Shown here: positions 1 to 23,426 of the stretch, piece after piece
Layout of the letters: each line of letters starts with the position of its first letter
Numbering within the stretch: position 1 is the first letter of the stretch
Source of the DNA: Natronoarchaeum philippinense
GTDB lineage: Archaea > Halobacteriota > Halobacteria > Halobacteriales > Natronoarchaeaceae
Assembly (NCBI RefSeq): GCF_900215575.1
Contig: NZ_OBEJ01000001.1
Coordinates: forward strand, 1,130,588 to 1,194,587
DNA length: 64,000 bases
Direction of reading: 5' to 3'
Made by a program: the position numbers and the translations under genes
Notes under the pieces: model-generated
What the model saw: only the letters and a program-made list of their open reading frames with translations
What the model was told of the DNA's origin: nothing
Databases searched by the model: none

Positions 1-618
1 CTCGATCGGCTAGCGAGTGTCGACGCGGGGCCAGAAGGCGTCATGACCGCGATGGTCGAAGAGACGCCGTCCGAACCCGTCCGCGAAGCGTTCGGCGAGC
101 GCGCGCCGCTCGTGGCCCGCGCGGCGCCGTGTCTCGCTGTCACCGACGATGCAGGCGTCGTTTCAGCCGCCCTCGACGTACCAGCCCCGCCGACGCGCTT
201 CGAGCGATGGAGCGACGGCGTCGAGCTGGACCGTGAGTGGTTCCGGCCGACGGGGCGATACGCCGTCGCGCTGGTCCGCGCGGACCTGTTCGCGCTCGGC
301 GAGTACGACGGGCGCGAGCAGCGCTCGGTCTCGGGCTTTCACAGCGGCGTCAAGAGCGACCACTCCAAGGGCGGGTTCTCGCAGGGGCGGTTCGAGCGCC
401 TGCGCGAGGAGCAGATCGACGAGCATCTCGGGAAGTGCCGCGACCGGATCGCCGAGCGCAAGGCCGAGCGGCTGTATCTTCTGGGAGACCGCGAAGCGAT
501 CGATCGGCTAGATGTCGGCGCCGAGGCGACCGATGCCGTCGACGCGACCGGCGATCCCGAGTCGGCGCTGGCAGACGCCGTTCGCGAGTTCTTCTCGGTC
601 AGGCTGTATCGGCTGTGA
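1..618 (+). CDS. VLRF1-type (Vms1/ANKZF1-like) release factor, 5' end cut
   Basis: Likely peptidyl-tRNA-releasing factor of the Vms1/ANKZF1/eRF1-like (VLRF1) family, which frees stalled nascent chains from ribosomes. The family hallmark is visible: GGFSQGRFERLREEQ, with the Gln of GGFSQ in the place of the eRF1 GGQ glutamine, preceded by HSGVKSDHSKGG and followed by an EQIDEHL helix. The frame is open from base 1. An ATG lies at 43, but haloarchaeal members usually carry a longer N-terminal coiled coil, so I read the gene as continuing left of the window. Family assignment is strong; true start unknown. A T-rich stretch at 673-680 follows the stop and may end the transcript. Confidence 0.8.
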   Translation, partial: LDRLASVDAGPEGVMTAMVEETPSEPVREAFGERAPLVARAAPCLAVTDDAGVVSAALDVPAPPTRFERWSDGVELDREWFRPTGRYAVALVRADLFALGEYDGREQRSVSGFHSGVKSDHSKGGFSQGRFERLREEQIDEHLGKCRDRIAERKAERLYLLGDREAIDRLDVGAEATDAVDATGDPESALADAVREFFSVRLYRL

Positions 619-737
619 CGGTCGCCACCGGGAACAGCCGTCCCGAACGCCGGCGGAGCGTGCCACGGCCCCGTTTTTTATCCGCGTCGACGCCGTAGTG
701 GGGCCGATACCAGCGGTGCGGCTGGAGAGGATACAGC

Positions 738-1244
738 ATGACAGATCACGATACCCAGACTGGCGACGGAACCACTTCGGGCGTCGACGCGCCCGGGAAT
801 GTGGCATCGGTTCTTCGAGAACGACTCGCCGACGGCAGCGCCGCCTACGCAGTCGGTGGCGTCTCGTTGGTGCGGGCGCTCAAAGCAGTGCGCAGCGACC
901 GCAAGCGCGCGGCGGGACACGCCCTCCTCGGGACAGCCCTGATCGCACTCGGTCGCGCCCAGCGACAGCGAGATGGCGACGGCGGCGAACCGACCGGGAC
1001 GACGACAGAGCAGTTGAGCAGTTCGACGCCGGAACACCGCGAGGACGACGAACTGTCCGAGACGAGCGTCGCAAACGAACCCGCAGAAGCGACCGGTCCC
1101 ACCACGTCCGACGCCGTCCCCGAACAGACCGAGTCGACCGAGCCCGAGACGACACCCGAAGCGGATCCGAACATCGACGCGGAGGACGATGCCGACGAGG
1201 CCGCTGCGAAAGACGACGGCGCGGACGACGAAGCCGACGAGTAG
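738..1244 (+). CDS. acidic haloarchaeal hypothetical protein
   Basis: 168 residues with no family I recognise. Residues about 20-75 form a modestly hydrophobic, Arg/Ala-rich region (SAAYAVGGVSLVRALKAV, then GHALLGTALIALGRA) that could be one or two short membrane-associated helices. From residue 80 to the end it is an Asp/Glu/Thr-rich low-complexity tail typical of haloarchaeal proteins. ATG start chosen because it is the first in frame. Real gene judged from codon-phase GC and the acidic translation; function unknown. Confidence 0.6.
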   Translation: MTDHDTQTGDGTTSGVDAPGNVASVLRERLADGSAAYAVGGVSLVRALKAVRSDRKRAAGHALLGTALIALGRAQRQRDGDGGEPTGTTTEQLSSSTPEHREDDELSETSVANEPAEATGPTTSDAVPEQTESTEPETTPEADPNIDAEDDADEAAAKDDGADDEADE

Positions 1245-1350
1245 AGCACGAGAATCGAAGAACGCCCAGAACTGCAAACGCCCGAGGCGGAACGTCCCCA
1301 CGGCCGTAACTGTCGGCACACTTTTTTGTCGGCTATCGAAATACGGTCCA

Positions 1351-2316
1351 ATGGCCGGAAACAGTAAGTCAGTCGTCCTCGCTGCGCTGGTCGCTAACGG
1401 CGCCATCGCTATCCTGAAGTTCGCCGGGTTTCTCCTGACACAGAGCCCCGCGATGCTGGCCGAGACGTACCACTCGCTCTCGGACACCGGCAATCAGGTG
1501 TTCTTGCTCATCGGCATCAGATACGGCTCCAGAGAGCGCGACCGGGAGCACCCCTTCGGCTACGGTAAAGCGCAGTTCTTCTACAGCTTCCTCGTAAGCG
1601 TGTTTCTTTTCGGCATCGCGGGCTGGGAGAGCGCCAAGCACGGCTACAAGGCGGTGATGCACGGCGAGACGACCGCCGTCGAAGGATCGGTGACGATTCC
1701 AGTGATCGCCACAGAGGTCCCCGGCGTCTACGTCAACTACGGCGTCTTGCTCGGCGCAATCGTCTTCGAGACGTACGCGCTGATCAAGGCCAGAGCCGCC
1801 ATGCAGGCCGAGATCGAGGAGAAAGGATACAGCGGCTACGTCGAAGCCTTCCGCAAGACCAGCCGGACGACGCTTCTCACAGCGCTGACCGAGGATACCA
1901 TCGCGCTGGCGGGGCTCGGCCTCGCGCTCGGGGGGATCTTCCTCACGCGGTGGACGGGCAACTACATCTTCGACGCCTCGGCGGCGCTGCTGATCGGCAT
2001 CATGCTGATGGGCTTTGCACTCGCGCTGGCGTGGGAGAACAAGCGACTGATCATCGGCGAGAGTCTGCCGGCCGACGAGGAGCGCGCGCTTCGCTCGACG
2101 ATCGAAGGCGTCGGCGGCGTCGCCTCGATCGTCGGCTTCCGGACCGTCTACTTCGGCCCCGAGGAGATCCTCGTCACGGCCGACGTTGCGTTCGACGACG
2201 GTCTCGACACTACCGAGATCGAGCGCGCCGTCGCCGATGCGGAAGCCCGCGTCAGGGAGCAGAATCCCGATGTCGTGAAGGTGTACGTCGAACCGGAAGT
2301 CAGGTCGGCCGACTGA
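1351..2316 (+). CDS. cation diffusion facilitator (CDF) transporter
   Basis: Divalent metal/proton antiporter of the cytoplasmic membrane, 321 residues, near the usual family length. The first transmembrane helices carry the metal-site signature AETYHSLSDTGNQ (HxxxD type) and the following loop has HPFGYGKAQFF, the conserved CDF HP.G..R/K motif. A second acidic pair, TEDTIALAG, lies in a later helix, and the last about 80 residues form the cytoplasmic metallochaperone-like domain (VEPEV end). It has an extended loop between helices 3 and 4, as in a subgroup of archaeal CDFs. Metal specificity cannot be read. ATG at 1351 follows a T-run (1322-1327) that may terminate the preceding gene. A second, unlike CDF lies at 44461. 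Confidence 0.88.
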   Translation: MAGNSKSVVLAALVANGAIAILKFAGFLLTQSPAMLAETYHSLSDTGNQVFLLIGIRYGSRERDREHPFGYGKAQFFYSFLVSVFLFGIAGWESAKHGYKAVMHGETTAVEGSVTIPVIATEVPGVYVNYGVLLGAIVFETYALIKARAAMQAEIEEKGYSGYVEAFRKTSRTTLLTALTEDTIALAGLGLALGGIFLTRWTGNYIFDASAALLIGIMLMGFALALAWENKRLIIGESLPADEERALRSTIEGVGGVASIVGFRTVYFGPEEILVTADVAFDDGLDTTEIERAVADAEARVREQNPDVVKVYVEPEVRSAD

Positions 2317-19717: not shown

Positions 19718-20164
19718 TCAGAGCGGGCGAGCGAGCAACAGCGCCGGGTCGCCGTCGTAGTACTCCGGATCGCGGTCGACTTCTCGGAACCCCCACTGTT
19801 CGTAGAACTCCAGCGCGGCGTCGTTGTCCGGCGCGACCGCGAGCGTGACGAGCCGAGCGCCGCGCTCGTCGAGTCGGTCGAACAGCGCCTCGAACAGCGC
19901 CGAGGCGACGCCCTCTCGTCGGTGGTCGGGGGCGACGACGAGTTCGGCGACGTACGCGCGCTCGTCGCCCGGCATCGCAAACACGTAGCCGATCGGGCGA
20001 CGGCGGTCGCGGTCGGCAACCGCTCCGACGGGCGCCGACGTGGCGACGAGTACCTCGCCAGATCCATCGAGTGCCGCGTCGAGCGCCTCGGGCGCCGGTT
20101 CCGGAAGCAGCGACTGGAGCGCCAGCAGCGCCGGCCGGTCGGTCTCGACGGGGTCGCGGATCAC
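19718..20164 (-). CDS. GNAT-family N-acetyltransferase
   Basis: 148 residues. The acetyl-CoA binding core is clear: YVAELVVAPDHRREGVASALFEAL (motif A, RREGVA) followed by VTLAVAPDNDAALEFYEQWGF (motif B). Substrate unknown. The start is a GTG at 20164 whose bases overlap the TGA of the upstream DUF92 gene (GTGA), arguing strongly for coupled translation and for this start. Confidence 0.82.
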   Translation of the reverse strand: MIRDPVETDRPALLALQSLLPEPAPEALDAALDGSGEVLVATSAPVGAVADRDRRRPIGYVFAMPGDERAYVAELVVAPDHRREGVASALFEALFDRLDERGARLVTLAVAPDNDAALEFYEQWGFREVDRDPEYYDGDPALLLARPL

Positions 20165-21486
20165 GTGAACGCGGCCAGCCCGACGGCCAGTGCGAGCAGG
20201 GTTCCGGCGATGCCGCCCGACAGCGTCGCCAAGAAGTTGACACTCTGATTGCCGATCCGATCGCCTTCGATGGTCGCCCCGAGCAGGCTGTCGACGGTCA
20301 TGCCGACGACGCCCGCGCTGGCGATCACGAGCGCGCCGCGCCCCGCGATACCCGAAAACAGCGCGCCCGAGAGCGCGGCGACGACCGCGGCGCCGGCGAT
20401 GCCCGCGAGTTCGCCCTGCCACGTGACGCCGCCGTCGGTCCCCGGTTCGACGCGTTCCAGCGTGGTGATCAGCCGCGGGGTGTCGAAGACGCCGCCGACC
20501 TCAGAGGAGAGCGTGTCGGCCAGCGCCGTGGCGAGTGAGCCGGCGAAAGCAAACGTGAAGATGGCGGGATCGACCGGGAGAAGTCCAGCGGCGGCGGTGG
20601 CGTAGCCGAGCACGGCCACCAGCGCGACCGCGGCGTTGCCCAGCACGTTTGCGCTCCCGCGGGCGCCGTCGTTGTCCTCTGCGACGCCGCGGTCGCGCTT
20701 CTGGTCGTAGCGGAACTTCGTCGAGAGCCCGCCGATGCCGAAGAAGGCGATCATGACGGCGAACCACGGGTACCCTCCGAGGACGATCGCCAGAAACGCC
20801 AGCACGACGCCCGCGAGCATCCCCTCGACGGAGGCCGTCTCCAACGCGTAGGAGGCATAGCCCAGTGCGGCCGTCACCGCAAGCGCGACGAGCACGTCCG
20901 GCGTGGACGTGCCGAGATCGAGTTCGGCGAGCAGCCACAGCAGGAAGCCGACCGAGAGGAGCACCGGCGGATCGTCGCGGCCGAGCAGGATCGAGCGGAG
21001 CAGTGCGCCGACGAGGGCGCCCGAGGTCGCCAGCACCGTCACCTCGGCCAGCGGGAGGACGGCGGCGTCCGTCGACATCGCAGTCGCCTGAACGCCGACG
21101 ACGCCGGCGATCAGTCCGCCGACGACAAAGCCGACGGCCTCGAACACCTCGCCCCCGAGGCGGTTGCGGGCGATCTCGCCGACGAAATTCCCGTACGAGT
21201 ACAGCACGACCGTCCCGACGAACACGGTCGCCGGAAGCTCGCCGAACGCGGCGAACGCGCCAAGCAGTCCTGCGGCGACGGCGAAGCCGACCAGCCCCTT
21301 GAGGCGCTCGTCGCGCCGGTCGCCGGGGCGGGCAAACAGCTCGAAGGCGGCGCCGTCGGTGATCGTCGCGGCGCCGATGGCCACCGCCGCGAAGGCGGCG
21401 ACGGCCACTGCGGGTGCGACGGCGGCGAGAAGCGAAAGCGTCCCGACCGCGGCGAACGCACCCGCACGTCTAACGGTCGATGTCAC
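20161..21486 (-). CDS. DUF92 (phytyl-phosphate-kinase-like) membrane protein
   Basis: 441 residues, about twelve membrane helices, no long soluble part. The C-terminal half matches DUF92/TIGR00297, relatives of plant VTE6 prenyl-phosphate kinase: GGLSTKFRYDQKRDRGVAEDN, ARGSANVLGNAAVALVAVL, and ADTLSSEVGGVFD. The N-terminal half (about residues 1-200) is an extra block of helices that I think is part of the long haloarchaeal form. A role in isoprenoid phosphate recycling is inference from the family. TATA at 21513 gives a near-leaderless transcript; the gene is coupled to the GNAT gene after it. Confidence 0.8.
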   Translation of the reverse strand: MTSTVRRAGAFAAVGTLSLLAAVAPAVAVAAFAAVAIGAATITDGAAFELFARPGDRRDERLKGLVGFAVAAGLLGAFAAFGELPATVFVGTVVLYSYGNFVGEIARNRLGGEVFEAVGFVVGGLIAGVVGVQATAMSTDAAVLPLAEVTVLATSGALVGALLRSILLGRDDPPVLLSVGFLLWLLAELDLGTSTPDVLVALAVTAALGYASYALETASVEGMLAGVVLAFLAIVLGGYPWFAVMIAFFGIGGLSTKFRYDQKRDRGVAEDNDGARGSANVLGNAAVALVAVLGYATAAAGLLPVDPAIFTFAFAGSLATALADTLSSEVGGVFDTPRLITTLERVEPGTDGGVTWQGELAGIAGAAVVAALSGALFSGIAGRGALVIASAGVVGMTVDSLLGATIEGDRIGNQSVNFLATLSGGIAGTLLALAVGLAAFT

Positions 21487-21573: not shown

Positions 21574-22203
21574 GTGCGCGATGACCTCCCTCGCGTGGGA
21601 CTGTACGACCGATATCTCGCTCTGCGGGTTCGGCGCGACGACACCCCGCCGCCGGATCACGTCGCGCTGATCGTCGCCGAGCGCGACCTGCTGGAGCGAG
21701 GTTCTTACGAGACGCTGGAGACGTTCTTCCGGTGGGCCGTCGAGTACGGCGCCGAGCGAGTGACGGTGTACGTCAGCGTCCTCGACGAAGCCGCCGTTCC
21801 GACGCTCGAACGGTCGCTGGCGGACGTGTCGGCACCGCGCGAGATGGCCGTTCGCGGGCCCGACGACCGGACGCGAGCCGACGCCCCGATCCAGATCAGC
21901 ATCGGGCTCGGCGGGAAACACGAGTTCACCGCCGCGGTGCGGTCGCTGGCCGCCGAAGTCGAGGCCGGCGAGGTCGCGCCCGAGGAGATCACCGAGTCCG
22001 ACGTGGAGGGGCGGCTCGTGTTCCCGGACGCCCCCGACCTCGTCATCAAGACGGGCGCCGAACGGCTCTCGGATTTCATGATCTGGCAGTCGGTGTACTC
22101 CGAACTGTACTTCACGGACGTGAACTGGCGGGACTTCCGCAAGCGAGACTATCTGCGCGCGATCCGCGAGTACAAGAACCGGACGCGGCGGTTTGGACGC
22201 TGA
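21574..22203 (+). CDS. non-catalytic cis-prenyltransferase-family (NgBR-like) protein
   Basis: 209 residues from a GTG start. The C-terminal part has the cis-prenyltransferase signature LVIKTGAERLSDFMIWQSVY followed by ELYFTDVNWRDF, equivalent to the RTGG.R.SNFLLWQ..Y.E motif of UppS. The N-terminal site that should read D-G-N-x-R is replaced (DHVALIVAERDLLERG), so the catalytic Asp is missing. This resembles eukaryotic NgBR/Nus1 and archaeal partner subunits of heteromeric cis-prenyltransferases. A true UppS lies convergent at 22497-23426. The last codons and stop are part of hairpins described below. Confidence 0.75.
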   Translation: MRDDLPRVGLYDRYLALRVRRDDTPPPDHVALIVAERDLLERGSYETLETFFRWAVEYGAERVTVYVSVLDEAAVPTLERSLADVSAPREMAVRGPDDRTRADAPIQISIGLGGKHEFTAAVRSLAAEVEAGEVAPEEITESDVEGRLVFPDAPDLVIKTGAERLSDFMIWQSVYSELYFTDVNWRDFRKRDYLRAIREYKNRTRRFGR

Positions 22204-22253
22204 GCAACGCGAAGCGTCCAAACGCCGGAAGACGAACGGAGCGAGTCTTCCGG
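22192..22253. repeat. two consecutive long hairpins at a gene 3' end
   Basis: Hairpin 1: TTTGGACGCT (22192-22201) pairs perfectly with AGCGTCCAAA (22213-22222) across an 11-base loop, and the stop codon of the upstream gene (22201-22203) lies at the stem tip. Hairpin 2: CCGGAAGAC (22225-22233) with GTCTTCCGG (22245-22253), loop GAACGGAGCGA. A second copy of the gene's last bases, TTTGGGCGCTGA, follows at about 22257-22268. These probably act as 3'-end signals. Confidence 0.7.
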
Positions 22254-22286
22254 AAGTTTGGGCGCTGAGTCATGCGAACCGGCCCG

Positions 22287-22524
22287 GTCGTCGGCGTCAG
22301 TCCGCAGCCCGGTCGTCGGCGTCAATCCGCAGCCCGATCGTCGGCGTCAATCCGCAGCCCGATCGTCGGCGTCAATCCGCAGCCCGATCGTCGGCGTCAA
22401 TCCGCAGCCCGATCGTCGGCGTCAATCCGCAGCCCGATCGTCGGCGTCAATCCGCAGCCCGATCGTCGGCGTCAATCCGCAGCCCGATCGTCGGCGTCAA
22501 TCCGCAGCCCGATCGTCGGCGTCG
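22287..22524. repeat. tandem array of a 25-bp unit overlapping the end of uppS
   Basis: Nine head-to-tail copies of a 25-bp unit with no spacers, from 22287 to 22511, plus 13 bases of a tenth (22512-22524). Copies 3-9 are identical; copies 1-2 differ by GG for GA, and copy 1 has CAGT for CAAT. On the minus strand each unit reads through codons for DADDRAAD and its TGA stop, i.e. the last codons of uppS. The array is thus an expansion of the uppS 3' end. Not CRISPR: nothing lies between the units. Confidence 0.9.
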
Positions 22525-23426
22525 AATTCCTCGGCGTCGAGACGTTCGCGCTCGCCGCTGGGGAGGGCGTCGCGGAACCGCCGGAGGACGCTCTTTGCCT
22601 CGTCGAGTTCGGCGCTCCCGGTCGCACGGAGTAGCGCGAGCGCGCGGCGGGCCCGCGCGGTGCGCCACGACTCTTGGCGGTGTTCGTAGGTGCGGATCGC
22701 TCGCAGGAAGTCGACCTTGCGGAACTCCGGCCAGTAGGGCGTACAGAAGAACACGGCGGCTTCGTTGCCGTTCGCGTACCACGGCAGGAAGTTGCTCGTG
22801 CGCTCGTCGCCGCCGGTTCGGATGATCAGGTCCACGTCCCGGACGGGGCGCTCGTACAGCCGATTTTCGACGGTTTCGATGTCGATCTCGTCGGGCGAAA
22901 TGGCGCCGTCCTCGACGCCGCCGAGCACCGACTGGGCGGCAGAAAGCAACTCGGCGCGGCCGCCGTAGGCCAGCGCGATGTTGAGGACGAACTGGTCGTA
23001 CTCTTCGGTTTGACCCTCGGCGTAGTCGACTGCATCCCGTACGCGCTCGGGCAGTCGATCGATGTCACCGAGCGCGCGGATACAGACGCCGTTGTCGTGG
23101 ACGCGTTCGGCGTCGGCGAACTCGCGGAGTTTTCCCTCGATCAGATCGAACAGCGCCTCGAGCTGGTCCTCGGGGCGATCGAAGTTCTCCGTCGAAAACG
23201 TGTACAGCGTCAACTCTTCGATGCCGAGGTCTTGGCACCACTCCAGAACTTGTTCGGTCGTCTCCGCGCCGTGTTCGTGCCCCTCGGTCGCGGAGTCTCC
23301 GTTCTGCCGGGCGTAGCGTCGGTTGCCGTCTTGGATTACCGCGATGTGGGTCGGGACCCCCTCGATCTCCCGCCGGAGTAGCCGCTCGTACCCCGATCGG
23401 ACGCGTCGTCCGAACCACTCTCTCAT
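22497..23426 (-). CDS. uppS: polyprenyl diphosphate synthase (cis-prenyltransferase), catalytic
   Basis: Extends isoprenoid diphosphates in cis configuration to make the polyprenyl/dolichol carrier. 309 residues from ATG 23426 (MREWFGRRVRSGYERLL). The catalytic motif is intact: HIAVIQDGNRRYARQNGDS with Asp33. LTLYTFSTENFDRP, LNIALAYGGRAEL and LIIRTGGDERTSNFLPW follow. The WY-ANGNEA segment differs from the usual WQ..Y.E. The C-terminal DADDRAAD is the unit of the tandem array beyond the stop. Longer upstream start (23552) rejected because it is antisense to cspA's promoter. Confidence 0.93.
   Translation of the reverse strand: MREWFGRRVRSGYERLLRREIEGVPTHIAVIQDGNRRYARQNGDSATEGHEHGAETTEQVLEWCQDLGIEELTLYTFSTENFDRPEDQLEALFDLIEGKLREFADAERVHDNGVCIRALGDIDRLPERVRDAVDYAEGQTEEYDQFVLNIALAYGGRAELLSAAQSVLGGVEDGAISPDEIDIETVENRLYERPVRDVDLIIRTGGDERTSNFLPWYANGNEAAVFFCTPYWPEFRKVDFLRAIRTYEHRQESWRTARARRALALLRATGSAELDEAKSVLRRFRDALPSGERERLDAEEFDADDRAAD

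Follow-up and report, generated by a model that had tools for sequence, protein, structure and literature searches.

Convergent genes of Natronoarchaeum philippinense very probably encode the two subunits of a heteromeric cis-prenyltransferase

Results

Gene content of the locus

The 3.16 Mb genome of Natronoarchaeum philippinense carries only two genes of the family PF01255, and both are found in the window, by which is meant the whole stretch of 64,000 nucleotides that was analysed. The plus-strand gene (21574–22203) and the minus-strand gene (22497–23426) are separated by about 300 bp and are convergent, as had been described in a sequence-only reading of this DNA. The features of the locus, in window coordinates, are as follows.

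20161–21486, minus strand: DUF92 membrane protein (PF01940, 190 bits), divergent from the non-catalytic gene
21574–22203, plus strand: putative non-catalytic cis-prenyltransferase subunit (NgBR/NUS1-like), assigned from PF01255, the family alignment and the AF2 fold
21658–21687, plus strand: degenerate catalytic site HVALIVAERD, from alignment with E. coli UppS, DHDDS, NUS1 and 146 non-catalytic sequences
21676–21678, plus strand: codon of Ala35, at the position of the catalytic Asp (E. coli D26), from the same family alignment
22189–22203, plus strand: C-terminal RXG motif (R206-F207-G208), with a single residue between it and the stop codon
22497–23426, minus strand: putative catalytic cis-prenyltransferase subunit (DHDDS-like), 309 aa, assigned from PF01255, TIGR00055 and the DHDDS match
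22497–22664, minus strand: helical extension at the C-terminus, where an RXG tail would otherwise stand, from low-confidence predicted helices and the DHDDS alignment
23316–23330, minus strand: catalytic DGNRR motif, present in 98/98 full-length catalytic homologues aligned

The plus protein has 209 aa when read from GTG 21574 and 202 aa when read from GTG 21595; the shorter form is probably the true one, since the start codon of most homologues corresponds to GTG 21595. Between the convergent genes lies a tandem array (22282–22523) of about 9.7 copies of the 25-bp unit GCCCGATCGTCGGCGTCAATCCGCA with 99% matches, which overlaps the 3' end of the minus gene and has no second occurrence in the rest of the genome.

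Family membership and predicted folds

Both proteins exceed the curated Pfam cut-off of 27 bits for PF01255. The plus protein scores 97 bits through its C-terminal half only (profile positions 115–219), and the minus protein scores 235 bits over its full length and additionally exceeds the cut-off of TIGR00055 with 236 bits. For the plus protein, the AF2 model (pLDDT 85, pTM 0.82) adopts the cis-prenyltransferase fold and matches NUS1 chains at a Z of about 13.5, which is level with many other family members. No N-terminal membrane anchor was found in this protein, the part preceding the domain being one short charged helix (aa 5–21).

For the minus protein, human DHDDS is the best PDB sequence match (E 7e-45), with the phmmer alignment reaching aa 289, and it is likewise the best fold match of the AF2 model (pLDDT 74) over the whole length, including the low-confidence C-terminal extension. 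That extension is predicted, with low confidence, to form helices at 237–268, 274–285 and 290–308, giving a DHDDS-like helix-turn-helix past the last helix of the domain.

Division of motifs between the two chains

An alignment was built from 146 distinct non-catalytic and 98 catalytic homologues together with E. coli UppS, human DHDDS, NUS1 and one MM_0014-type protein. At the positions of E. coli D26, G27, N28 and R30, all 98 full-length catalytic chains carry D, G, N and R, and the intact DGNRRY noticed earlier in the minus gene falls within this pattern. At the same positions the residues of the non-catalytic chains are mostly T/S/A/K, E, S/R/T and L. None of these 146 aligned sequences has DGNRR, and the segments bearing E. 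coli R39, H43, N74, W75 and R77 are either missing or substituted. Ala35 thus bears out the earlier remark that the plus gene, at DHVALIVAERD, is without the catalytic Asp. What the non-catalytic chains do keep (E. coli numbering) is E213 (146/146), R242 (145/146) and G244 (146/146).

The RXG motif, which is the decisive feature, is distributed in the opposite manner, being aligned in 145/146 non-catalytic sequences and in none of the 98 full-length catalytic ones. In 148 of the 149 distinct non-catalytic sequences a single residue follows RXG and closes the chain, and the remaining one ends KFG-K; the plus protein ends RFG-R-COOH, and the minus protein has no RXG. This reciprocal division, seen in alignment with E. 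coli UppS, DHDDS and NUS1, agrees with the DHDDS/NgBR-like split that had been proposed from the sequence alone. Two details of that proposal have to be amended. The KTGAERLSDFMIWQSVY segment, taken there as the C-terminal motif of the plus protein, belongs to a conserved region, RTGGE-R-S-W; the C-terminal motif proper is RRFGR. The suggestion that the catalytic chain had passed its C-terminal function to its partner holds in so far as the RXG tail is missing from the minus chain and present in the plus chain; the WYANGNEA segment offered as its reason, and regarded as a peculiar change, is not one, W-x-A-x-G-N-E being common across the catalytic clade.

Occurrence across Halobacteria and Halobacteriota

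Absence of the plus protein from most haloarchaea had been named as an outcome that would speak against a pair, and the non-catalytic profile was found to match 391/391 Halobacteria genomes at E 5e-24 or better. The weakest of these genomes score about E 5e-25 to 3e-24, and cross-matches of the profile to the catalytic paralogue are weaker (E about 1e-18 to 1e-21). Some matches are weak or split, in G183 by a run of N and in G235 by a contig end that cuts the gene. In genus g8 (L118, L119) the non-catalytic subunit carries, midway along its length, an inserted acidic stretch of about 18 aa, which splits the profile matches in many genomes.

A full-length catalytic gene was found in 144/145 Halobacteria genomes; the one genome with no catalytic match (G072) is in 120 contigs, and an assembly gap is probably responsible. 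No catalytic gene without a non-catalytic partner was encountered among the sampled genomes.

In the sample of the phylum Halobacteriota, the non-catalytic profile matches 107/110 genomes. The three unmatched genomes (G397, G406 and G415; 1.3–1.8 Mb) belong to family f18 and have no PF01255 gene, which indicates that both genes were lost together; f18 is apparently without any cis-prenyltransferase. Nearly all other Halobacteriota genomes have one full-length and one C-half PF01255 match. Genomes G061, G068, G098 and G105 carry two catalytic-type genes each, with a single non-catalytic gene seen.

Gene arrangement

Among 80 haloarchaeal loci examined with 9 kb flanks, the non-catalytic gene lies within 9 kb of the catalytic gene in 64 and is not found within that distance in the other 16. 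All 64 linked pairs are convergent, with a median of about 400 bp between their ends. The same orientation is seen in 9/9 linked loci of Methanoperedens, Methanocellales and related groups, and in further Halobacteriota families. In Methanosarcinaceae the two genes are far apart and unlinked. Such long-conserved linkage supports a functional tie between the genes; the convergent orientation rules out a shared transcript and is unusual for obligate partners.

Clades and pairwise distances

A tree of 76 proteins separates the catalytic and non-catalytic sequences, sampled phylum-wide, into two clades (SH-aLRT 92 and 88, obtained by a quick method). As each type falls on one side of the branch, the duplication cannot be younger than the phylum Halobacteriota. 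The MM_0014 type forms a clade of its own, characterised by a TLGG tail. Human NUS1, when added, sits on a branch of 5 to 7.5 changes per site, its grouping with the non-catalytic clade having a support of 42 and alternative placements not being rejected.

In a mirror-tree comparison of 45 haloarchaeal genomes the pairwise distances of catalytic and non-catalytic proteins correlate beyond linked neighbours, with a partial r of 0.52; another pair, DUF92 versus DUF5778, also reached 0.52, and the signal is therefore unspecific.

Discussion

The division of motifs, the universality of the pair, the two clades and the conserved arrangement all support the proposal that the products of the two genes together make up one heteromeric cis-prenyltransferase, which we consider, from these sequence comparisons, very probably correct. 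For this enzyme we infer a physical complex, an activity that needs both chains (an obligate heteromer) and the identity of the product.

In the bacterial homodimer UppS (E. coli IspU), an enzyme of the same fold and family, one chain carries both the DGN-R residues and RXG, whereas here they are divided over two. Enzymes of the divided kind are already known, namely eukaryotic DHDDS/NgBR and a heteromer of M. mazei. The minus chain resembles DHDDS in its DGNRR, its C-terminal helical extension and its lack of RXG. The plus chain resembles NgBR in its lack of DGNRR, its shortened N-terminal half and an RXG one residue from the C-terminus, and differs from it in that NgBR has an N-terminal transmembrane domain (PMC7573591), which the archaeal partner lacks.

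Human NgBR ends R290-L291-G292-K293; the backbone nitrogens of L291 and G292 bind phosphate, and the K293 carboxylate touches R37 and R85 of DHDDS (PMC7573591). An exact spacing between RXG and the C-terminus is a requirement of a carboxylate mechanism of this K293 type. Furthermore, the helix-turn-helix of DHDDS is incompatible with the active-site interaction network of each heterodimer (PMC7573591), which is consistent with the loss of RXG from the minus chain.

By analogy, the minus chain would use its DGNRR to bind Mg2+ and the allylic diphosphate, and would catalyse the repeated cis addition of isopentenyl diphosphate, without an RXG tail of its own for closing the active site. The plus chain, having lost the donor site and part of its N-terminal half, would be non-catalytic and would retain the fold, the conserved C-terminal region and the RXG tail ending one residue later. 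This tail would cross the interface and complete the minus active site in trans, as that of NgBR does for DHDDS. The expected product is a long polyprenyl diphosphate, which would lead to the dolichyl phosphate sugar carrier.

In M. mazei, MM_0618/MM_1083 are reported as a heteromeric cis-prenyltransferase with C45-50 products, and the same species has MM_0014, a homodimeric cis-prenyltransferase that is active without RXG (PMC8131916). Four genomes other than that of M. mazei were examined, three of Methanosarcina and one of Methanolobus. All four have the catalytic and non-catalytic types, and Methanosarcina sp. 2.H.T.1A.6 has three genes, one catalytic, one non-catalytic and one of the MM_0014 type. 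By elimination within the genus, MM_0618 and MM_1083 are the orthologues of the haloarchaeal pair. The Methanosarcina pair likewise comprises a catalytic and an RXG-bearing non-catalytic type from the same two clades; it differs in that the genes of Methanosarcinaceae are unlinked, while the haloarchaeal ones are mostly convergent neighbours.

MM_0014 also furnishes the precedent for a different reading, in which the minus chain would act as a homodimer of that kind and the plus protein would regulate it or modulate chain length without being an obligate partner. Like the minus chain, MM_0014 is a catalytic cis-prenyltransferase without RXG, and DHDDS alone can form homodimers (PMC7573591). 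However, MM_0014 stands in a clade apart that is marked by a TLGG tail, the catalytic gene never occurs without the non-catalytic gene among the sampled genomes, and the tail held at a fixed spacing in nearly every non-catalytic sequence (148/149) is the very segment that known structures show inside the partner's active site. We consequently regard a self-sufficient minus chain as improbable. More improbable still is the view that the plus gene is a paralogue in decay, or that its product serves outside polyprenol synthesis. All donor-site residues of the protein are lost, but it persists throughout the phylum, including every haloarchaeon sampled, and has retained invariant residues, a confidently modelled fold and an unvarying C-terminus, which decay would not keep. 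A reading of the plus gene as a pseudogene was likewise rejected.

NUS1 scores 48 bits over its full length against the non-catalytic profile and 32 bits, in fragments, against the catalytic profile, and it shares with the archaeal non-catalytic chains a (T/S)-E in place of D-G, the deletion in the N-terminal half and the RXG-X-COOH end. These scores and shared features hint at an archaeal origin of NgBR; NUS1 is too divergent to be placed in the tree beside the archaeal subunits. It is conceivable, and to our judgement somewhat doubtful, that the heteromer was ancestral to Halobacteriota and that eukaryotic NgBR/NUS1 and DHDDS descended from such an archaeal pair. If true, the split dolichol enzyme would be an archaeal inheritance and not a eukaryotic invention. 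The haloarchaeal pair makes the origin of the eukaryotic split enzyme a testable question.

The earlier view that the split enzyme was undescribed for haloarchaea agrees with the open literature searched, in which no description of a haloarchaeal heteromeric cis-prenyltransferase was found. Three points are new here: the pair occurs throughout Halobacteria and in most Halobacteriota, its non-catalytic member follows the RXG-X-COOH rule strictly, and the convergent arrangement of the genes is conserved. Haloarchaea are a main model of archaeal N-glycosylation, and no assignment of the enzyme for the haloarchaeal dolichyl phosphate chain was met with in the literature found. Generic models would label both genes UppS, and with a two-subunit enzyme the expression or deletion of a single gene would mislead. 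The pair would also offer a small, genetically tractable relative of a complex that is mutated in human disease.

Two further observations concern neighbouring and related genes. The haloarchaeal genome G002 (L120) has an ORF at 414–1499, minus strand, for a third distinct cis-prenyltransferase-like protein, which scores 103 bits against PF01255, carries DGHRR and ends RRNEGR. The DUF92 gene is a conserved neighbour: in every haloarchaeal locus that yielded both genes (61/61), it and the non-catalytic gene diverge. Plant relatives of DUF92 include a phytyl-phosphate kinase, and by analogy the DUF92 protein may have the lipids of the same pathway as substrates, as a candidate isoprenoid-alcohol or isoprenoid-phosphate kinase.
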